From NCBI RefSeq assembly GCF_002215035.1, contig NZ_NKFP01000004.1:63726-127725 (forward strand): DNA of 64,000 nt. The letters run 5' to 3'. Below the pieces are notes generated by a model. It was given only the letters and a program-made list of their open reading frames with translations, was not told the origin of the DNA and ran no database searches. Both the position numbers and the translations under genes were made by a program. This DNA is from Leptolyngbya ohadii IS1. Its GTDB lineage: Bacteria > Cyanobacteriota > Cyanobacteriia > Elainellales > Elainellaceae. Positions 2,437 to 32,223 of the stretch are shown piece by piece (the stretch's first letter is position 1; each line of letters opens with the position of its first letter).

Positions 2437-2553
2437 GGCATTACCTGAGCGTAGACAACGATGAGCGCATCTTATACACTTCCACCGCAACACACATCTC
2501 TATACTGGCGGATTAGTAAACTGACAACTTAGCCCTGCTGAATGGGAATTGCC

Positions 2554-3009
2554 TTACGCCCGAACCGCCTCCGGGAAAAGCTCCTTCAGTTCCGCTGGCA
2601 GCATGTGGGTAATATCCTGCATTTCTCCTGCCGGGATGCGATCGCTCATCACCCGAAACACAGCCCGCGCCAACTGCTCGATCTCAAAGCCAGGATTCTC
2701 ATCACGAATATATTGATGCACATGGCTTTGCACCGTCTCCAGGAAAGCCGCCTGGGTGCGCTCTTTAGTGGGAGTGGATTCGGGTTTCCAGCCTTCGTAG
2801 TAAAAGCCCGCCAGCAGGGTCGGCAGTTCTGCGCCCAGGTGAGCCGCTTCGCCCATCGGCATCCGGTTGCGGACTGCGTGCAGCGTTGCCCGTAGCCCCT
2901 GAAACGCTCTGTGCTTGTCTTCGAGATTTAGCTCTTTTGCCACCTCGCTCACCCACTGCTCCGTAGTTTGAACAGTTTTATCAAACACGCCTAATCCGTG
3001 CATTGCCAT
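2554..3009 (-). CDS. DUF2267 domain protein
   Basis: This is a 151-residue soluble protein with an ATG at 3009 preceded by GAGGA about 6 bases upstream. The DUF2267 pattern is clear: VAKELNLEDKHRAFQGLRATLHAVRNRMPMGEAAHLGAELPTLL, GFYYEGWKP, then a second similar half with MSDRIPAGEMQDITHMLPAELKELFP. The two halves look like an internal duplication of a helical unit. The biochemical function of the family is unknown. No operon partner is obvious, since the SDR downstream is 200 bases away. Confidence 0.85.
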   Translation of the reverse strand: MAMHGLGVFDKTVQTTEQWVSEVAKELNLEDKHRAFQGLRATLHAVRNRMPMGEAAHLGAELPTLLAGFYYEGWKPESTPTKERTQAAFLETVQSHVHQYIRDENPGFEIEQLARAVFRVMSDRIPAGEMQDITHMLPAELKELFPEAVRA

Positions 3010-3210
3010 AAGGATTCCTCAGTAAATCTAGTCGGGGTTAAATCAGCTACTTTCAGCCTCTGGGCAGGCGTTTTGGGACGATCGCCTGTGAATCCCAAAG
3101 CGTTGAATAAAGCACTGATTATGCTAACGAGGGCATTTTGGGCAAAAGGTCTATCAAATTAAAGAGATTCGCGCCGATTTGCACCGCGCTTTGCGCCAAT
3201 TTCCACTGCG

Positions 3211-3957
3211 CTACCGCCCGCCTGCCACATCCACGATCGCCCCGGTGCAATAGGATGCCTCCTCAGACAGCAGCCACAAAATTGTCTGCGCCACTTCAAG
3301 GGCAGTCCCACCCCGCTGCATGGGAATCGTGGGCAAAATCCGCGCCAGCCGATTCGGTTCTCCCATGGCGGCATGAATTTCGGTATCAATAAATCCCGGT
3401 CGCACAGCATTCACGCGGATTCCCGCCGCTGCCACTTCCTTTGCTAAACCGATCGTCATCGTATCAATCGCCCCTTTGGATGCCGCATAATCCACATACT
3501 CGTTGGGCGATCCCAGGGTGGCTGCCACCGACGAGACATTCACGATCGCACCCCCTGCCCCACCTCGATCAATCGACATCCGCCGGATCGCTTCACGGGC
3601 ACAGAGAAAGCTGCCGATGACATTGGTTGCAAAAATACTTTGAATCCGCTCAGGATCAATCGCTTCTACGCGCCGAGCCGGGGCAGCAATTCCCGCATTA
3701 TTTACCAGTGCGCTCAGCGTGCCAAAGGTACGATCGATTGCCTCAAACAGACGCAGCACATCGGATTCCAGGCTAACATCTGCTTGAACTGCGATTGCCT
3801 CACCGCCTGCGGCTGTAATCTGTTCGATCATGCGATCAGCTGCTGCCCGATTCTGCCGATAGCTCATGCAAACGGCGTAGCCTTTTTCTGCTGCCAGAAT
3901 TGCCGTTGCTGCACCAATTCCCCGACTGCCGCCCGTAACAAGCATCGTTCTATTCAT
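3211..3957 (-). CDS. SDR family oxidoreductase
   Basis: This is a classical 248-residue short-chain dehydrogenase/reductase. It has the NAD(P)-binding TGGSRGIG at residues 8-15, NNAG at 86-89, the catalytic serine near 143 and YAASK at 157-161. An Arg in SYRQNRAAAD after strand 2 suggests NADPH preference (inference). The C-terminus ending in VDVAGGR is typical. The substrate is unknown. It is the last gene of the minus-strand run beginning in the rhamnose region, 68 bases after the glycosyltransferase, so a metabolic link to that locus is possible but unproven. Confidence 0.9.
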   Translation of the reverse strand: MNRTMLVTGGSRGIGAATAILAAEKGYAVCMSYRQNRAAADRMIEQITAAGGEAIAVQADVSLESDVLRLFEAIDRTFGTLSALVNNAGIAAPARRVEAIDPERIQSIFATNVIGSFLCAREAIRRMSIDRGGAGGAIVNVSSVAATLGSPNEYVDYAASKGAIDTMTIGLAKEVAAAGIRVNAVRPGFIDTEIHAAMGEPNRLARILPTIPMQRGGTALEVAQTILWLLSEEASYCTGAIVDVAGGR

Positions 3958-25062: not shown

Positions 25063-26226
25063 ATGGAAAGAGTGTCAGCTTACGCTACCAATCCCGAATC
25101 TAATAATTTTGAAAAGTTTGAAGAACCCGCTGTGGCTCGATCGGCTGAAAGAAGCGAACGATCTGTCCCGAAGAAGCCTCTCGTTTCTTTAGTAACCCCC
25201 GCTTACAACGAAGCCCTCATTCTCGAAAAAAACCTGACGATTCTCTGCGAGTACATGGCAAGCCTGGAGGATGAGTACGAGTGGGAACTCATTGTCGTCA
25301 ATGACGGGAGCCGGGACAACACGGGCGCATTAGCAGAATTGTTCGCCCGGAAACACAGTAAAGTGCGCGTCGTCCACCACGAAGTGAACTCTGGAATGGG
25401 GCAGGCACTCCGAACCGGATTTGACAATGCTCTGGGGGATTATGTCGTTGTTTTAGACATGGATTTGAGCTTTGCGCCCAGCCACGTCGAGCGTCTTTTA
25501 GACAAAATTCGGGCAACCCATGCGGATGTCGTCACCGCATCTCCCTACATGGGCGGCGGCAAGGTTTCCAATGTTCCCTTCATTCGCTTGATGCTGAGCG
25601 TGGGTGCAAACTGGTTTCTCGGCTTTGCCACCAAAAAGAAATTCACCAGCATTACCGGCATGGCAAGGGTTTACGATGCAGAATTTCTGCGTTCCCTCAA
25701 CCTGCGATCGAAGGGGATGGACATCAACCCGGAAGTGCTGCACAAGGCAGCTTTGCTGGAGGCACGGGTGGAAGAAATTCCTGCCCATCTGCGCTGGATT
25801 CCCCAAAACGATCAGCCTAAATCTAAGCGTCGCAAGTCCAGCATGACGACGATGAAGATCCTGAAGCACACCTGGGCGATCGTCTTCTTTGGGTTTCTGT
25901 TTCGTCCGGTGATGTTTTTTGTAATTCCCAGTCTGCTGTTCTTTGCCATCTCCCTGTATTCCCTGGGCTGGGCAAGCATTCACTCCTGGACTTCTTACCA
26001 ATTCTTGATCGCACAAGGCGCTATTGCCACCACCTTCGACGATAGGATTTCGCAAGCCGTAGCGCAGGCATTTCAATCCTCTCCCCATTCGTTCGTCATT
26101 GGGGGCATGGCGCTGATGATTGCAATTCAGCTCTTTAGCCTGGGCGTGCTGTCGGTGCAGAGCAAGCAGTATTTCGAGGAGGTCTTTAATCTCGGAACTG
26201 CAATCTACAAATCAACTCGCAATTAG
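25063..26226 (+). CDS. GT2 glycosyltransferase, polyprenyl-phosphate type (ArnC/DPM-like)
   Basis: A 387-residue protein; GGAGAG lies eight bases before the ATG. The GT-A domain shows SLVTPAYNEALILEKNL, IVVNDGSRDNT, VVHHEVNSGMGQALRTGFDNA and VVLDMDLSF (the D-x-D metal site), the layout of dolichol- or undecaprenyl-phosphate sugar transferases. The C-terminal third holds two to three membrane helices (VMFFVIPSLLFFAISLYSLG; FVIGGMALMIAIQLFSLGVL), as in ArnC. It would charge a polyprenyl phosphate with a sugar on the cytoplasmic side. First gene of the five-gene plus-strand cluster, followed by a 200-base spacer. Confidence 0.85.
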   Translation: MERVSAYATNPESNNFEKFEEPAVARSAERSERSVPKKPLVSLVTPAYNEALILEKNLTILCEYMASLEDEYEWELIVVNDGSRDNTGALAELFARKHSKVRVVHHEVNSGMGQALRTGFDNALGDYVVVLDMDLSFAPSHVERLLDKIRATHADVVTASPYMGGGKVSNVPFIRLMLSVGANWFLGFATKKKFTSITGMARVYDAEFLRSLNLRSKGMDINPEVLHKAALLEARVEEIPAHLRWIPQNDQPKSKRRKSSMTTMKILKHTWAIVFFGFLFRPVMFFVIPSLLFFAISLYSLGWASIHSWTSYQFLIAQGAIATTFDDRISQAVAQAFQSSPHSFVIGGMALMIAIQLFSLGVLSVQSKQYFEEVFNLGTAIYKSTRN

Positions 26227-26426
26227 CGCAAGCCTTAACGCATAGCTGTCTATTCGGTCTGTCCAGTCTATTTACGACTGGTTGAACGATCGACAGTCTT
26301 TACTCAGGCACCTGAACAACAGCGGGTGGGGGCAGAGGCAGTCGCGACTCAGGGAAAAAGCCTCTATATCCCTGCCTTCAGCAGACAACGTCAGTGAACA
26401 ATGCTCTATTTCGGGTTGATGGAACA

Positions 26427-27722
26427 ATGAATATTGCGATCGTCGGTGGCGGCATGATGGGGATGACTCTTGCCTATCGTCTGTCAGAGCAGGGAAACCG
26501 GGTCACGCTGTTTGAGGGTAGCCCGCAACTGGGCGGCTTAACGACCCACCATGATTACGGCTCCTTTGTGTGGGATCGGTTCTACCATGTGATTCTGCCG
26601 TCCGATCAGGCGTTGATTGCGCTTTTGAAAGAGATTGGTTTGGGCGACGAGCTTGACTGGCAAAAGACCTTGACCGGATTCTATGACGGTAAACAGTTTT
26701 ATTCGATTAGTAATTCGATCGAGTTTTTGAAGTTTCCGCCGCTGAATCTGCTGGACAAAATTCGGCTGGCGTTTACCCTGCTCTACGGATCGCGCATCAA
26801 GAACTGGAAAAAGCTAGAAACCATTCGGGCGGAGGATTGGCTGATTTCCCTATCCGGTCGCGGCACCTACGAGAAAATGTGGAAGCCGCTGCTGCGGGCA
26901 AAGCTGGGCGAAAACTATAAGCGCGTCTCTGCCGTATTCATCTGGGCTTACATCAGCCGTTTGTTTTCTGCACGGGATTCTTCCCTGAAAAAAGAGGAAT
27001 TGGGGTATGTGCGAGGAGGATACAAAACGGTATTCGATCGCCTGACTGCTCTGATCCAGTCCACCGGGGGAAAAGTCCTGACGGGCATATCGGTAGAGTC
27101 GATCGTCCCCCATCCCAGCGGAGGGTTATGGGTGGAACACAGCCAGCGCAAAGAACATTTCGACAAGGTTATTTTTACAGGTCCGGTGAACGTATTGGAG
27201 CAGGTTGCTGCGAAGGAACTGGTGAATGTTTCTGGGAACGGTAACGCGATTGAATATATGGGAGTGGTGTGTATGGTGCTGTTAACGCGCAAGCCACTGG
27301 TTCCCTACTACGTCGTGAATATTGCCGATCAGAAAGTTCCCTTTACCGGGGTGATCGGAATGAGTAATCTGGTGGACTTGCAGGAGACCAACGGGCTGCA
27401 CATGACCTTTTTACCCAAGTACGTTCTTTCCGATGATCCGTTCCTGAAGGAATCCAACGAGTCGATCGAAAAGTATTTCCTGGACGGACTGCGATCGATG
27501 TTCCCGGATTTGCGATCGGAGGACATTGCCGGAATCCATATCAACCGGGCATTTAAGGTGCAGCCGCTCCAGGTGTTGAACTATTCCAGTCTGGTGCCCC
27601 ATACCACGGTGAGCAGCAAGGATTTCTATATCCTTAACACTGCCCAACTGGTGCAGGACAATCCCAATAACAATGCGGTTGTCCGCCTGGTGGATCAGTT
27701 TTTGCAGGATCAGTTTTTGTAA
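26427..27722 (+). CDS. FAD/NAD(P)-dependent oxidoreductase, amine-oxidase/UGM-like
   Basis: A 431-residue protein from the ATG at 26427 (an upstream GTG adds 11 unlikely residues). The N-terminus MNIAIVGGGMMGMTLAYRLS is a dinucleotide-binding Rossmann fold followed by the acidic strand end VTLFEGSPQLGGLT, characteristic of the FAD-dependent amine oxidase/protoporphyrinogen oxidase/UDP-galactopyranose mutase superfamily. The C-terminus (LNTAQLVQDNPNNNAVVRLV) fits the FAD-closing segment. The substrate is unknown; within this cluster a modification of a lipid-linked or nucleotide sugar, or of the polyprenyl carrier, is the most economical guess. Confidence 0.8.
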   Translation: MNIAIVGGGMMGMTLAYRLSEQGNRVTLFEGSPQLGGLTTHHDYGSFVWDRFYHVILPSDQALIALLKEIGLGDELDWQKTLTGFYDGKQFYSISNSIEFLKFPPLNLLDKIRLAFTLLYGSRIKNWKKLETIRAEDWLISLSGRGTYEKMWKPLLRAKLGENYKRVSAVFIWAYISRLFSARDSSLKKEELGYVRGGYKTVFDRLTALIQSTGGKVLTGISVESIVPHPSGGLWVEHSQRKEHFDKVIFTGPVNVLEQVAAKELVNVSGNGNAIEYMGVVCMVLLTRKPLVPYYVVNIADQKVPFTGVIGMSNLVDLQETNGLHMTFLPKYVLSDDPFLKESNESIEKYFLDGLRSMFPDLRSEDIAGIHINRAFKVQPLQVLNYSSLVPHTTVSSKDFYILNTAQLVQDNPNNNAVVRLVDQFLQDQFL

Positions 27723-27776
27723 TAAGCAATAAATAAAACTTTGTCTAGCGTTTGCCTATCCCCCGCCAATTTCACA

Positions 27777-28772
27777 ATGAAAAAGCATCAGCCTGTTGCC
27801 AGTCTTTCCCTGGATTTGGATAACCTCTGGTCTTACCTGAAAATTCACGGCGATTCCGGCTGGGAGTCTTTTCCTTCCTACCTGGATATTGCCGTCCCCC
27901 GCGCCCTGGACTTTCTGAAGCAGCGGGATCTGCAAATTACCTTTTTTATCGTCGGTCAGGATGCCGCCCTGGAAAAGAATCATCGGGCAATTCGGGCGAT
28001 CGCAGATGCGGGACACGAAATTGGCAATCACTCGTTCCATCACGAAGCCTGGCTGCATCTCTACTCCGAGGAGGACATCGAGCAAGAGGTCAAAAACGCA
28101 GAAGCCGCCATCCAGGAAGTGACGGGCGTTCGACCCACAGGATTTCGCGGTCCTGGATTTAGCTACTCGCTGGCTTTGCTGGAAGTGTTGCAGCGGCGGG
28201 GCTACCAGTATGATGCCTCTACGTTCCCAACCTTTTTGGGACCGATCGCCCGTGCCTATTACTTCATGACCAGCAACCTGAGCAAGGAGGAGCGGCAGAA
28301 GCGGAAGGCACTCTACGGCAGTTTCAAGGATGGCTTGCAGCCCCTCAAGCCCTATCGCTGGCAAATGGAGGGCAATCAACGGCTGGTAGAAATTCCCGTG
28401 ACGACTATGCCGATCTTCAAAATTCCCATCCACTTCACCTACGTTCTCTATCTGAGCGTGTTCTCCCCGGTGCTGGCGCTGCTTTATTTCCGCATTGCGC
28501 TCTGGCTCTGCAAACTCACCGGGACTCAGCCCTCTCTACTGCTGCATCCGGTGGACTTTCTAGGACAGGAGGATGTCCCGGAGCTGTCGTTCTTCCCGAC
28601 CATGAATCTTTCGAGTGAGCAGAAGCTCAAGACCCTGAGTAAGGCACTGAAAATGCTGGCGCGGGACTTCACTATTCTGCCGATGGGAGAACATGCCCAA
28701 TGGGTCGCAAATCGCAGCCGCTTACCCGTCCTGGAACCGAAACGCCGTGGCACACAGGTCGAAGTCGCATGA
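27777..28772 (+). CDS. Polysaccharide deacetylase family protein, ArnD-like
   Basis: A 331-residue NodB-fold protein from the ATG at 27777 (TTG at 27741 rejected). Motif 1 is SLDLDN (Asp13, Asp15), the D-x-D form of ArnD rather than the usual DDG. The metal histidines are in GHEIGNHSFHHEAW (His85, His89). FRGPGF, EIPVTTMP (205-212) and LLHPVD (His257) match further ArnD positions as I remember them. A hydrophobic stretch at 221-245 suggests membrane contact, fitting a lipid-linked substrate. ArnD removes a formyl group from undecaprenyl-phosphate-Ara4FN; the natural substrate here is unknown. It overlaps the next gene by 4 bases. Confidence 0.85.
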   Translation: MKKHQPVASLSLDLDNLWSYLKIHGDSGWESFPSYLDIAVPRALDFLKQRDLQITFFIVGQDAALEKNHRAIRAIADAGHEIGNHSFHHEAWLHLYSEEDIEQEVKNAEAAIQEVTGVRPTGFRGPGFSYSLALLEVLQRRGYQYDASTFPTFLGPIARAYYFMTSNLSKEERQKRKALYGSFKDGLQPLKPYRWQMEGNQRLVEIPVTTMPIFKIPIHFTYVLYLSVFSPVLALLYFRIALWLCKLTGTQPSLLLHPVDFLGQEDVPELSFFPTMNLSSEQKLKTLSKALKMLARDFTILPMGEHAQWVANRSRLPVLEPKRRGTQVEVA

Positions 28773-29806
28773 CCACCATTCACTCCAGTCCATCCAAACT
28801 CAAAAAATACGTTTCCCTAGGTCTGGGAACAGCGATCACCGCTGTACTGCTTGCCTGGGCATTTCGAGGCGTTGACCTGCGATCGGTCTGGCAGGCGTTG
28901 CAGCAGGCAAAATGGCAGTGGCTATTCCTGGGATGGCTTGCCTATCTTGCATCCTACTGGGTTCGCGCCTGGCGATGGGGAACACTTCTCGCAGCAACCA
29001 CTCCGCCCGGTCATTTCAACAACCGATTAGCGGCGATCTTTGTTGGCTTTGGAGCAAGTAGTGTCCTGCCGTCCTACGTGGGGGAATTCCTGCGGGCAGG
29101 GGTCGTTTTTCGGAAAGATCAGATCTCGATGGGGGCAGCCGTGGGCAGCATTTTTGCGGAGCGTCTGCTCGACGTGGGCATGGTGTTTCTCTTTTTGCTG
29201 CTGCCGATCTGGATGGGCGCATTGCCCCTGCATTCCAGCTTGAGCAGTCTACCACTGGGATGGATTGGAGCGGCGATCGTCCTGCTCTGGGCAACCTTTG
29301 TGATTGGGGCGAGTTTTCCCAAACCGATCGCGCAGGTTGTTGGTTCACTCTGCCAATTCGTTGGCTTAGGCAAGTTTAAAGCTTCCGTAACCTCAGCACT
29401 CACCAGTTTCCTGGAAGGTCTGACGGCACTAAAGCAGCCGCAGCGCAGCAGTATGGCATTCCTGCAAACCGTTATGGTCTGGCTGCTCAACGGCATCACC
29501 TACTGGTCAGGACTGGTTGCCTTCGGTTTAACGGCTCCTGGTTTTTTGGGTGCGCTATTTACCCAGAGTGCAACGGCATTAGCGATCGCCATTCCCTCAA
29601 CGCCAGGCTATGTGGGTCCATTTGAGGCAGGGGTGCGATTCTCGCTCGGAATTTATGACATTGCACCGGATTCAGTCCTTGCCTACGCGATCGCTCTGCG
29701 GTTTCTCATGTACGTCACAATTCCCATCATTGCAGCGGTGATCGCCTTGCGGATGAGCCTGTTTCAGGGAGAATTTCTCGCCGCATTCAAGGCAAAGCTT
29801 AAGTGA
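28769..29806 (+). CDS. Flippase-like membrane protein (lysylphosphatidylglycerol synthase TM-domain family)
   Basis: A 345-residue protein starting at the ATG at 28769, whose ATGA overlaps the deacetylase stop. It has about eight hydrophobic helices and the family pattern: GVDLRSVWQALQQAKWQWLF near the start, YWVRAWRWGTLL, FVGFGASSVLPSYVGEFLRA, SIFAERLLDVGMVFLFLL and a terminal IPSTPGYVGPFEAGVRFSLG. Members include the MprF translocase half and AglD-type proteins that act on lipid-linked sugars. In this cluster a role in moving a polyprenyl-phosphate sugar across the membrane is inferred from position. Confidence 0.85.
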   Translation: MTTIHSSPSKLKKYVSLGLGTAITAVLLAWAFRGVDLRSVWQALQQAKWQWLFLGWLAYLASYWVRAWRWGTLLAATTPPGHFNNRLAAIFVGFGASSVLPSYVGEFLRAGVVFRKDQISMGAAVGSIFAERLLDVGMVFLFLLLPIWMGALPLHSSLSSLPLGWIGAAIVLLWATFVIGASFPKPIAQVVGSLCQFVGLGKFKASVTSALTSFLEGLTALKQPQRSSMAFLQTVMVWLLNGITYWSGLVAFGLTAPGFLGALFTQSATALAIAIPSTPGYVGPFEAGVRFSLGIYDIAPDSVLAYAIALRFLMYVTIPIIAAVIALRMSLFQGEFLAAFKAKLK

Positions 29807-29842
29807 GTGGTTGATTAAGGATTAATCGGTTAAAGCTCGATC

Positions 29843-29870
29843 GCTCAACATTTCTAGCTCAATATTTCTA
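29843..29870. repeat. 14-bp tandem repeat, two copies
   Basis: gctcaacatttcta and gctcaatatttcta are contiguous, ending 13 bases before the start codon of the GT39 gene. The short spacer is thus largely a duplication. Confidence 0.7.
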
Positions 29871-29883
29871 AAATTCATGACCC

Positions 29884-31488
29884 ATGAAAGAAATTTCTTC
29901 TGCTTCCCCAGAGCGGGATCGAAATTGGCTGCAATCCGTTAGTCAATTACTGGCGCATCAGGAAGCGATCGTCGCTCTCTTCATCCTCTGCCATCTGGCA
30001 ATTACCATTCCCCTTGCTGCGGTTCTTAATATCTGGTTTGACGAAGGCTACTCGCTGAATACCACCAGTCGAGACGTAGTTTTTGCCGTCCAGCACGGCT
30101 TAAATTATGAGTGGCAGCCCCCCGTCTTCCCCGCACTGCTGAATCTTTGGCGCAGTCTCAATGGCTCAATCTTCTTTGCCCGACTGTTCTCCGTTTTATG
30201 CTCAACGTTAACAATTTACGTTGGTTTTCTATTATCAAAACGGTTTATTCATAATATTCATCCCGCCTGGATTGCTGGGATTCTTGCATTTAATCCCTAT
30301 CTGATTTGGGCTGGCGTCGAAATTCGTCTTTATGCGCTGTCGATTCTATTCTCAGCCCTGTTACTTCTCTTCTTTTATGACGGCTATCTAGCTGACAACG
30401 GCAGCTCCAGAGCCAGATGGATTTACTTCTTCCTTTCCATCCTCGGACTCTACACCCATTTCTTTCTTGCTTTTGTCCTGATTGCTAACGGTGCTGCCCT
30501 TCTATTTCTTCGACGCTGGAGAGCATTGAGCACCTATATAGTGTTTACCGCGATCGCGGGTTTGTGTTTCCTACCGTTCTTTTTGCTGTTAGTTGCCCGC
30601 CTATCCGATCGGTTAGAAGCTTACAACGACCCGGTTCCGCTCACCCGCAGTCTGAGCTTTGTGGTGCTATCAATCACCAATTTTATTGTTTATATCTGGA
30701 AAGACTCTTCTTTCTCCTCCAGAGTATTTCGCGCCTTCTGGGGTTTAGCTATTCCGCTGGTTTGCCTCTTCCTTATCGCAAAGAGTCGTCGGACTGTGCA
30801 GGCTCAGCATCAGGCGCTGTGGATTGGAACGCTGGTGATTGGACTATTGCTGGCGGCATTTCTCACCAAAACTTCTACGGCAACGGAAGAACGGTACGTT
30901 TACCCACTGCTCGTTCCGTCCATTCTTGGGTTTCTCTGCGTTCTTTCCCTGATTCAGAGTGGGGCAGTTCGCAGGAGCGGTTTACGAATTTGGGCGGGAG
31001 TCATAGCCTGCTTCTTTACAGTTTCCCTGTTCACAATCTATAGTCCTTTAGCGAAAACAGGCGACTGGCATAGAGTTGCCTCTTATCTCACCGCTACTGA
31101 GCAAAGTAATCAGCCGATTCTGGTGTTTAGCGCTGAGCTAGAAATGATGCTGAAACCCTACTATTCCGGCAAAAATGCGATCGTTCCTGTTCCCCAGAAG
31201 CAGCAGTTTGAACAGTTTAATCCGGCGGATTTCCAGATCAAGAACGAACAGCAGGTTTTTGACTTTTTCTCGCAAATTCCCGCAGACCAGCAGACGGTTT
31301 GGCTTGTCACTAGCGAGCAACATTGCCCCGGTCTAGGAACCGTGAAGCTGAGGCAATACCCGGATAGCCTCAACTGCGGCGTTCTAACGGATTTCGTCAA
31401 CAAAAACTACTCCGTTGTCTCCGTTCAACAATTCTTTGAATCCACAGTTCAACTGCTGAAAAGAAATCCTGCTCCTCTAAAGCCATAG
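29884..31488 (+). CDS. GT39-type polyprenyl-phosphate-sugar transferase (ArnT/PMT-like)
   Basis: A 534-residue protein. After the first membrane helix comes NIWFDEGYSLN, with the Asp53-Glu54 pair of the GT39/ArnT superfamily in the first outer loop. About 10-11 hydrophobic segments follow, including VEIRLYALSILFSALLLL, then an outer C-terminal domain (residues 410-534). Such enzymes take a sugar from a polyprenyl phosphate on the outer face and transfer it to lipid, protein or polysaccharide. It closes the Arn-like cluster, 77 bases after the flippase-like gene. Confidence 0.85.
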   Translation: MKEISSASPERDRNWLQSVSQLLAHQEAIVALFILCHLAITIPLAAVLNIWFDEGYSLNTTSRDVVFAVQHGLNYEWQPPVFPALLNLWRSLNGSIFFARLFSVLCSTLTIYVGFLLSKRFIHNIHPAWIAGILAFNPYLIWAGVEIRLYALSILFSALLLLFFYDGYLADNGSSRARWIYFFLSILGLYTHFFLAFVLIANGAALLFLRRWRALSTYIVFTAIAGLCFLPFFLLLVARLSDRLEAYNDPVPLTRSLSFVVLSITNFIVYIWKDSSFSSRVFRAFWGLAIPLVCLFLIAKSRRTVQAQHQALWIGTLVIGLLLAAFLTKTSTATEERYVYPLLVPSILGFLCVLSLIQSGAVRRSGLRIWAGVIACFFTVSLFTIYSPLAKTGDWHRVASYLTATEQSNQPILVFSAELEMMLKPYYSGKNAIVPVPQKQQFEQFNPADFQIKNEQQVFDFFSQIPADQQTVWLVTSEQHCPGLGTVKLRQYPDSLNCGVLTDFVNKNYSVVSVQQFFESTVQLLKRNPAPLKP

Positions 31489-31587: not shown

Positions 31588-32223
31588 TTGGTTCCGGCAA
31601 AACAGGAGCCTGTGAAAGGATTATTGGTTGGGCTGCACGGATGGGGTGCAAATGGGCAGGATGTGGCAGGCGTTGCGGCTTACCTGAATTTGCCTAGCTA
31701 CCAGTTTGCCTTTCCCGATGCTCCCTTTCCCTTTCCCTACGGTGGACCGGGGCGCGTCTGGTACAACTTTCCGGCAAACTACTCCTTTGCCAGTCGATCG
31801 GATTTCGCCCACAATCCCGAACTGAAGTCCAGCCGTCAGCAGTTGACCGAATGGCTGCGATCGCTCGAATCCCAGACCGGAATTCCCCTGTCTCGCACTG
31901 TGCTGGCGGGCTTTTCCCAGGGCGGTGCCATGACGCTGGATGTGGGTTTGCAGTTGCCCCTCGCCGCAATTATGATTCTCAGCGGCTATCTGCACACGCC
32001 AATCGATCTGCCCCAGCCCATCGATCCGGCAAAACTGCCCCAGGTGGTGATGCTGCACGGACGATCGGATCAGGTCGTTCCTCTCCGAGCAGCCCATGAG
32101 GCACGCGATCGGCTTACCGAGTTAGGGATTCCGGTGTTGTACGAAGAGCTGGACATGGGACACGAAATTTCGATGTCTGTCCTTAGCCGGATGCAAAGTT
32201 TTATAGAAGAAAAGCTGGAATAG
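31588..32223 (+). CDS. Carboxylesterase/phospholipase family hydrolase
   Basis: A 211-residue alpha/beta hydrolase. The triad is visible: Ser110 in GFSQGG, Asp161 in HGRSDQVVP and His192 in GHEI; LVGLHGWGANGQD supplies the oxyanion loop. It cleaves short-chain acyl esters; the physiological substrate is unknown. The start is unusual: the frame has no ATG. TTG at 31588 is used here, but the ribosome site GGAGAGAGG ends near 31567 and the residues upstream (TLALQAS) resemble the family N-terminus, so a CTG at 31570 or 31576 is possible. Confidence 0.85.
   Translation: MVPAKQEPVKGLLVGLHGWGANGQDVAGVAAYLNLPSYQFAFPDAPFPFPYGGPGRVWYNFPANYSFASRSDFAHNPELKSSRQQLTEWLRSLESQTGIPLSRTVLAGFSQGGAMTLDVGLQLPLAAIMILSGYLHTPIDLPQPIDPAKLPQVVMLHGRSDQVVPLRAAHEARDRLTELGIPVLYEELDMGHEISMSVLSRMQSFIEEKLE

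Follow-up and report, generated by a model that had tools for sequence, protein, structure and literature searches.

A conserved glycosyltransferase, flavoenzyme and deacetylase core and a putative lipid-linked sugar pathway in Leptolyngbya ohadii

What do five neighbouring genes of the cyanobacterium Leptolyngbya ohadii IS1 make together? They occupy positions 25063-31488 of a 64,000-nucleotide stretch of contig NZ_NKFP01000004.1 (the window, from a genome of 7.9 Mb) and encode a family 2 glycosyltransferase (GT2), a flavin adenine dinucleotide (FAD) oxidoreductase, a deacetylase, a flippase-like protein and a further membrane protein, called here the terminal protein. A sequence-only reading had proposed that all five form an undescribed relative of the enterobacterial Arn pathway. 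From the analysis below, we consider it probable (roughly 0.66) that the cluster is a polyprenyl-phosphate (amino-)sugar pathway working like Arn or like a three-component glycosylation system, with the FAD enzyme as its distinctive part. The expected co-occurrence of the five genes is borne out for GT2, FAD enzyme and deacetylase, whose genes stand together both in relatives and across phyla, and is weaker for the flippase-like and terminal genes, which adjoin the deacetylase in few relatives.

Conservation among relatives was examined in 59 genomes besides the window's own. A deacetylase orthologue of 60-76 % identity is present in 11 of them, the remaining listed matches being at most 41 % identical, and in 10 of these 11 same-family genomes an FAD gene lies no more than two genes away; the contig of the eleventh is 4.6 kb long. 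Among the ten loci holding both genes, an LPG_synthase_TM gene directly follows the deacetylase in four, and an orthologue of the terminal gene is found in two. Many same-family loci also carry a DegT aminotransferase, a Gfo/Idh enzyme, a hexapeptide acyltransferase and methyltransferases. The best curated match of the Gfo/Idh enzyme is inositol 2-dehydrogenase (147 bits, cut-off 355), with UDP-GlcNAc 3-dehydrogenase second (138 bits, cut-off 450). The aminotransferase, UDP-GlcNAc-3-dehydrogenase-like and acyltransferase genes stand in the same locus in seven relatives. In two further relatives such genes adjoin the GT2 on a separate contig (two of the three in G010, all three in G027).

Outside the cyanobacteria the same core recurs. 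Relatives of the FAD enzyme were searched with an alignment of ten FAD proteins, which returned 521 among named genomes, and the best 80 of the 521 were used (31 non-cyanobacterial and 49 cyanobacterial loci), so that the 31 are close relatives of the window's enzyme. Over loci of up to 21 kb, six-frame tblastn finds a window-type GT2 in 30 of the 31 and an extended/epimerase-type short-chain dehydrogenase/reductase (SDR) in 26; the deacetylase is present in 25, a GT-C-like protein in 17 and GtrA, the putative flippase of some Bacteroidota, in four. The GT2 relatives near FAD in other phyla are 40-51 % identical to that of the window. The order SDR-FAD-deacetylase-GT2-GT-C recurs in Flavobacteria, and GT2-SDR-FAD-deacetylase in Nitrospira and some Proteobacteria; the SDR scores below cut-off with each of its matches, the 4,6-dehydratase, UDP-xylose synthase and ArnA-type families. 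Six of the 31 loci are deacetylase-negative, three of them on short contigs (L137, L140, L147), and the genomes of L137 and L140 carry the deacetylase elsewhere.

Within the cyanobacteria the arrangement is looser. The deacetylase and a window-type GT2 stand near FAD in one of the 49 loci (L075, which is G013 of the relatives search); in most of the others the GT2 next to FAD is more distantly related (about 30 %). Small ArnE/F-like transporters, as a pair or in some loci singly, precede FAD by no more than 2 kb in 44 of the 49; for the two tested, from L077, ArnF and ArnE are the sole curated matches (41-46 bits, below the cut-offs of 92 and 99). For a test of unlinked co-occurrence, 28 FAD-bearing genomes were taken from 48 such loci, L075 not being counted, and in 21 of the 28 the deacetylase gene sits elsewhere in the genome. 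In a phylum sample of 292 genomes from 116 genera, the window's own included, the deacetylase is found in six genomes and the FAD enzyme in five, every FAD-bearing genome also bearing the deacetylase, and the same three genera account for both; the FAD scoring covered about five candidates per genome and may miss an FAD gene (for example in G218). The samples overlap in one further genome, which is both G153 and L108, with the same deacetylase place. It is these counts, in relatives, other phyla and unlinked genomes, that put the cluster beyond chance.

The three core proteins also vary together to different degrees. Pairwise distances of the deacetylase and GT2 correlate with rho 0.87 over 31 loci (L049 and L075, which match the same contig, are both counted), meaning that the two co-diverge. 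The correlation of the FAD enzyme is looser (0.60 with the deacetylase, 0.72 with GT2). The cause is that the FAD subtype differs in those same-family relatives that carry the aminotransferase set, where it is 42-45 % identical to the window's enzyme, compared with 69 % for G013. We read this as an FAD subtype that follows the sugar.

The deacetylase matches Polysacc_deac_1 (PF01522) with 80.9 bits (cut-off 23.1), a family with five matches in the window genome, and most members of its subfamily carry the motif SLDxDNxWSYxKxxG. Residues D14, D16, H86, H90, R125 and H258, which we take to be the catalytic and metal residues of the carbohydrate esterase family 4 (CE4) motifs, are invariant in all 23 aligned deacetylases (numbering follows the translation of window positions 27774-28772, one ahead of the Met). 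In the window protein the D-x-D motif, HEIGNHSFHH and EIPVTTMP are all present, as the sequence-only reading had pointed out. The D-x-D motif had been taken as an ArnD-style feature, which we reject as unspecific, since the distant cyanobacterial paralogues L018 and L021, of 32-33 % identity, also show it in a loose motif scan (VLSFDVDGESG). Motif 1 is preceded by only 9-13 residues in 21 of the 23 proteins, too few to accommodate a signal peptide (the other two, with 50 and 70 residues, are open reading frames (ORFs) taken from an upstream start). The deacetylase thus apparently lacks a signal peptide, and hence does not look like an exported peptidoglycan deacetylase.

By sequence this protein is not ArnD: its score against the ArnD model NF011923 is 25.3 bits (cut-off 382), a local hhalign comparison with ArnD gives 91 % over 107 columns, the global one gives nothing, and ArnD chains are absent among its profile matches to the PDB at E 1e-5. 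The predicted model (predicted local distance difference test, pLDDT, 88.7) is closer. Its best structural match is 3rxz (Z 27.1, 2.8 Å, 257 residues), followed by 3qbu (Z 25.1), by 3s6o, 1z7a and PuuE (Z 23.3-23.6) and by ArnD itself (8t0j, Z 22.2, 2.6 Å, 227 residues). Next come the putative glycoside hydrolase/deacetylase 3lm3 (Z 21.2), glycoside hydrolase family 57 amylases (up to 20.6), the insect chitin deacetylase 5Z34 (20.0) and, at about 16-18, the PgdA-type, acetylxylan-esterase-type and fungal chitin enzymes. One paper names the 3RXZ, 3QBU, 3S6O and 1Z7A set as the closest relatives of ArnD (PMC10967932). Judged from the model, the deacetylase falls in the ArnD structural subclass of NodB, above the classical peptidoglycan, chitin and xylan enzymes. 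The earlier expectation that it would group with ArnD-like rather than peptidoglycan or chitin enzymes is supported at this level (Z 22-27 versus about 16-19 for the classical enzymes and 20.0 for the insect chitin deacetylase), and its likeness to ArnD holds for the structural subclass and not for the sequence. With the subclass shared and the sequence not that of ArnD, it is plausible that the enzyme works in the ArnD manner without being an ArnD.

The FAD enzyme belongs to NF005560 (PRK07233; 473 bits, cut-off 252), a model that carries only the name 'hypothetical protein' and has one gene above its cut-off in the window genome; it also matches the Pfam family Amino_oxidase (PF01593, 109 bits). 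Its predicted model (pLDDT 89.2) superposes on phytoene desaturase 5mog (Z 31.8, 3.2 Å, 421 residues) and on Myxococcus protoporphyrinogen oxidase (Z 31.0), placing it, as modelled, in the phytoene desaturase/protoporphyrinogen oxidase/amine oxidase superfamily. Such a predicted fold is compatible with a lipid-borne substrate, and by itself names no reaction. Residues D50, R or K51, Y53, H54, W173, R178, R183, Y277 and C282 are conserved in all 40 sequences compared. Two more specific readings were considered. Monoamine oxidases, which carry a flavin-facing lysine, also fit the model (Z 26-29), and in an informal look by eye no such lysine was seen in the corresponding stretch. A pyranose-furanose mutase is possible and not favoured, since UDP-galactopyranose mutase (Z 26.7-26.9; 4dsh, 26.9) ranks below many other folds.

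The GT2 matches PF00535 with 110 bits, and a simple hydropathy scan finds two hydrophobic segments at its C-terminus, as had been noted before. Its family aligns with E. coli ArnC at an hhalign probability of 99.6 % (E 6e-25, 280 columns) and it scores 50.6 bits against the ArnC equivalog model (cut-off 529); on these profile comparisons we regard it as homologous to ArnC and ArnC-like. The fourth protein belongs to LPG_synthase_TM (PF03706; 133.5 bits, cut-off 33.4), a class other than ArnE/ArnF, as had been proposed for the putative flippase. The terminal protein has nine hydrophobic segments in the same kind of scan and the acidic D-E outer-loop motif that had been described, DEGYSL in the window and DEAYSL and DDAYSL in two orthologues. 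Its assignment as a GT39 enzyme or ArnT finds no support at the sequence level: it has no Pfam match even at E 0.1 and no family match among the curated models, hhalign against ArnT gives 0.3 % for both of its families (GTC, of three sequences only, and GTC420), and a PDB search at E 1 returns no ArnT and one chance match at E 0.1. PMT_2 is weakly matched by two of the three family members (best E 8e-4, 20.1 bits versus a cut-off of 26.1) and not by the window protein. The hydrophobic segments, the acidic loop and these weak PMT_2 matches in two relatives make the terminal protein a candidate GT-C enzyme.

The ORF listing confirms that the five genes are consecutive on the plus strand (Table 1). 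Three starts have been refined: the FAD gene to an ATG at 26427, within a longer GTG ORF from 26394, the deacetylase to an ATG at 27777, within a TTG ORF from 27741, and the flippase-like gene to an ATG at 28769, within an ORF from 28700. The distances between successive genes are then 200, 54, -4 and 77 bases, which agrees with the 4-base overlap reported for the deacetylase and flippase-like genes.

Table 1. Genes of the cluster, in window coordinates, with the evidence for each assignment.
Gene product	Coordinates	Strand	Basis
GT2 resembling polyprenyl-phosphate sugar synthases, hydrophobic segments (two) at the C-terminus	25063..26226	+	PF00535
FAD oxidoreductase, PRK07233 family (NF005560), predicted phytoene desaturase/protoporphyrinogen oxidase fold	26427..27722	+	NF005560, model
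NodB-fold deacetylase, own subfamily	27777..28772	+	PF01522, model, invariant catalytic/metal residues
LPG_synthase_TM flippase-like membrane protein, start within deacetylase stop codon	28769..29806	+	PF03706
GT-C-like membrane protein, candidate terminal transferase	29884..31488	+	nine hydrophobic segments, acidic D-E loop

From the genes, their families and predicted folds, the catalytic residues of the deacetylase, the conserved clustering and the unlinked co-occurrence, all directly established, we infer a scheme of five steps, including every substrate, the order of the second and third steps, membrane association, flipping and transfer. GT2 would charge polyprenyl phosphate with an N-acylated sugar, and the FAD enzyme would then alter the redox state or stereochemistry of that sugar, probably on the lipid; elsewhere it may act together with an SDR or with the 3-dehydrogenase/aminotransferase/acyltransferase set. 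A cytoplasmic and probably membrane-associated NodB-fold enzyme would take off the N-acyl group. A flippase would next move the lipid-sugar outward, its class varying from LPG_synthase_TM here to an ArnE/F-like pair in Nostoc and kin and GtrA in some Bacteroidota. Finally, a GT-C-like enzyme may pass the sugar, which would by then be basic, to an acceptor on the outside, for which O-antigen, exopolysaccharide, protein and lipid A are candidates.

This scheme resembles several known systems. The Arn pathway (ArnA-F and ArnT) places 4-amino-4-deoxy-L-arabinose on lipid A. The window GT2 looks ArnC-like by sequence and the deacylase is predicted to share the NodB structural subclass of ArnD; moreover, ArnE/F-like pairs are present in Nostoc-type variants of the FAD locus, and the SDR of many relatives' loci is homologous to the dehydrogenase part of ArnA (hhalign 99.9 %). 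On the other hand, the deacetylase and the terminal protein are by sequence neither ArnD nor ArnT, and LPG_synthase_TM stands where Arn has ArnE/F. The sequence-only reading was therefore right in the logic of charging, editing, flipping and transfer, and too specific in naming Arn, ArnT and lipid A. No ArnA/ArnB-type gene is found in the window cluster (ArnA and ArnB themselves were not searched genome-wide). The suggestion that the FAD enzyme replaces ArnA/B-type tailoring needs revision: in many relatives an SDR or aminotransferase gene stands next to FAD.

A similar working logic, to charge with an N-acetyl sugar, deacetylate and transfer, is seen in LgmA-LgmB-LgmC of Bordetella, which put glucosamine on the phosphates of lipid A, and in FlmF2/NaxD/FlmK of Francisella. 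Mycobacterial DprE1 and DprE2 are two enzymes that edit a polyprenyl-phosphate sugar; one of them is a flavoenzyme, DprE1 having a different flavoprotein fold, and we claim no homology of either to the window proteins. To our knowledge the FAD enzyme described here does not occur in Arn, Lgm or three-component systems, and the Lgm and Francisella systems have neither an FAD enzyme nor an SDR. According to two papers, lgmA, B and C are required for glucosamine (PMC4993483), which is added by LgmB (PMC11401268). Three-component glycosylation (GtrA/GtrB/GT-C) shares the charge-flip-transfer scheme proposed for the window cluster and may employ a GalE-like SDR as a helper that works on the lipid-linked sugar; in related polyprenyl-phospho-ribose systems the flippase is of the multidrug and toxic compound extrusion (MATE) type, and a polyprenyl phosphoribose synthase takes the place of the GT2 (PMC11127046). 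A text search of that paper found neither an FAD enzyme nor a deacetylase (PMC11127046). No paper on the set of GT2, FAD enzyme, deacetylase, flippase-like and GT-C-like genes was found in the open-licence PubMed Central literature.

Several observations weigh against the pathway as proposed. PF03706 proteins are only putative polyprenyl-phosphate-sugar flippases, and the missing family match of the terminal protein has been described above. The window genome as a whole has no orthologue of the relatives' aminotransferase at E 1e-60, nor has G013, and no SDR orthologue is found at an unlinked site, the best match in the window genome being 40 %, compared with a 91 % SDR orthologue beside FAD in G153. 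G013, which has the nearest deacetylase, shows GT2, FAD and deacetylase with no adjacent flippase or GT-C gene. The distribution is also patchy: same-genus G001 lacks orthologues of both the deacetylase and GT2, as do G006, G008 and G012 (GT2 called at E 1e-50), and a deacetylase is present with no GT2 orthologue at that threshold in G034 (68 % complete) and in the Nostoc-type G121, G153, G176, G218 and G326. The genomes of L123, L134, L139 and L147 show no deacetylase at all, and it was not found in 7 of the 28 FAD-bearing cyanobacterial genomes. Finally, the deacetylase stands elsewhere in 19 of 20 cyanobacterial genomes with no SDR beside FAD and in only 2 of 8 with one; SDR and deacetylase thus tend toward mutual exclusion in cyanobacteria, yet stand together in other phyla.

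Could the deacetylase instead act on a finished surface polysaccharide or peptidoglycan, the cluster being a general exopolysaccharide locus? Among curated models, the XrtA-system polysaccharide deacetylase TIGR03006 scores highest (77-84 bits, 77 for the window protein, cut-off 276), its best PDB matches by sequence are HP0310, a CE4 pseudoenzyme and PdaA, and several loci sit within larger glycan clusters. The lack of room for a signal peptide, a predicted model nearer the ArnD/HP0310/PuuE subclass than classical CE4 enzymes, and the window-type GT2 at nearly all non-cyanobacterial FAD loci make this unlikely. We find it just as hard to believe, perhaps slightly harder, that the FAD enzyme acts on an isoprenoid (the lipid carrier, or a hopanoid or carotenoid), so that the cluster would yield an isoprenoid that is modified or carries a sugar. 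The nearest folds to the predicted model are indeed those of phytoene desaturase and protoporphyrinogen oxidase, and the hydroxysqualene dehydroxylase HpnE is the second NCBIfam match (92 bits, under the cut-off of 283); however, the FAD subtype shifts with the sugar genes while GT2 and the deacetylase keep to the lineage, as is expected if the FAD enzyme reads the sugar.

That the five genes are chance neighbours serving separate processes is very improbable. The 200-base gap behind GT2 would suit it, as would the promoter- and terminator-like sites at the cluster, which show no excess over the shuffled expectation and therefore leave an operon structure unproven, and so would the few relatives in which the last two genes adjoin the deacetylase. 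For GT2, FAD enzyme and deacetylase, however, this explanation is largely contradicted by their conserved clustering across phyla, together with the unlinked co-occurrence of FAD enzyme and deacetylase.

The lipid-linked sugar pathway may reach further. Rather tentatively, we suggest that it is widespread, that a flavoenzyme of the phytoene-desaturase/amine-oxidase superfamily edits the sugar on polyprenyl phosphate together with a cytoplasmic membrane-associated deacetylase, and that three flippase classes (LPG_synthase_TM, the ArnE/F-like pair and GtrA) are swapped around this constant chemical core. If so, a large FAD-enzyme family annotated only as hypothetical would gain a function, and one deacetylase subfamily would be tied to lipid-linked sugars. 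Flippases of three classes could then serve one chemistry, which would help in assigning orphan PF03706 and GtrA proteins, and Nostoc-type cyanobacteria, members of the window's own family and marine Flavobacteria would be predicted to bear a basic sugar at their surface. The core for loading and editing the sugar recurs in distant bacterial groups and is seemingly unstudied.

Some further observations concern the neighbourhoods of these genes. In some loci of Flavobacteria and Cytophagales, a sulfotransferase-family gene follows the deacetylase (L126:12496-13518 by Pfam; L131, L132, L133 and L136 by a local profile), hinting at a sulfated sugar or acceptor. Five Nostoc-type genomes (L060-L064) carry the deacetylase with no neighbouring FAD, SDR or window-type GT2 gene, L064 having a distant GT2 adjacent. 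In G027 (L059) the deacetylase, at about 2448-3421, looks decayed, being spread over two overlapping frames that contain internal stops, and the neighbouring FAD gene is split over two frames; an assembly error may be the cause. A second FAD oxidoreductase (PRK07208-like, below the cut-off) is found in the same cluster at L052:6496-7857, L053:6284-7633 and L054:6944-8347, and these three clusters also hold extra methyltransferases. In the window itself, a carboxylesterase/phospholipase-type gene (PF02230) lies on the same strand at 31588-32223, 99 bases downstream of the cluster, with no evidence of membership.

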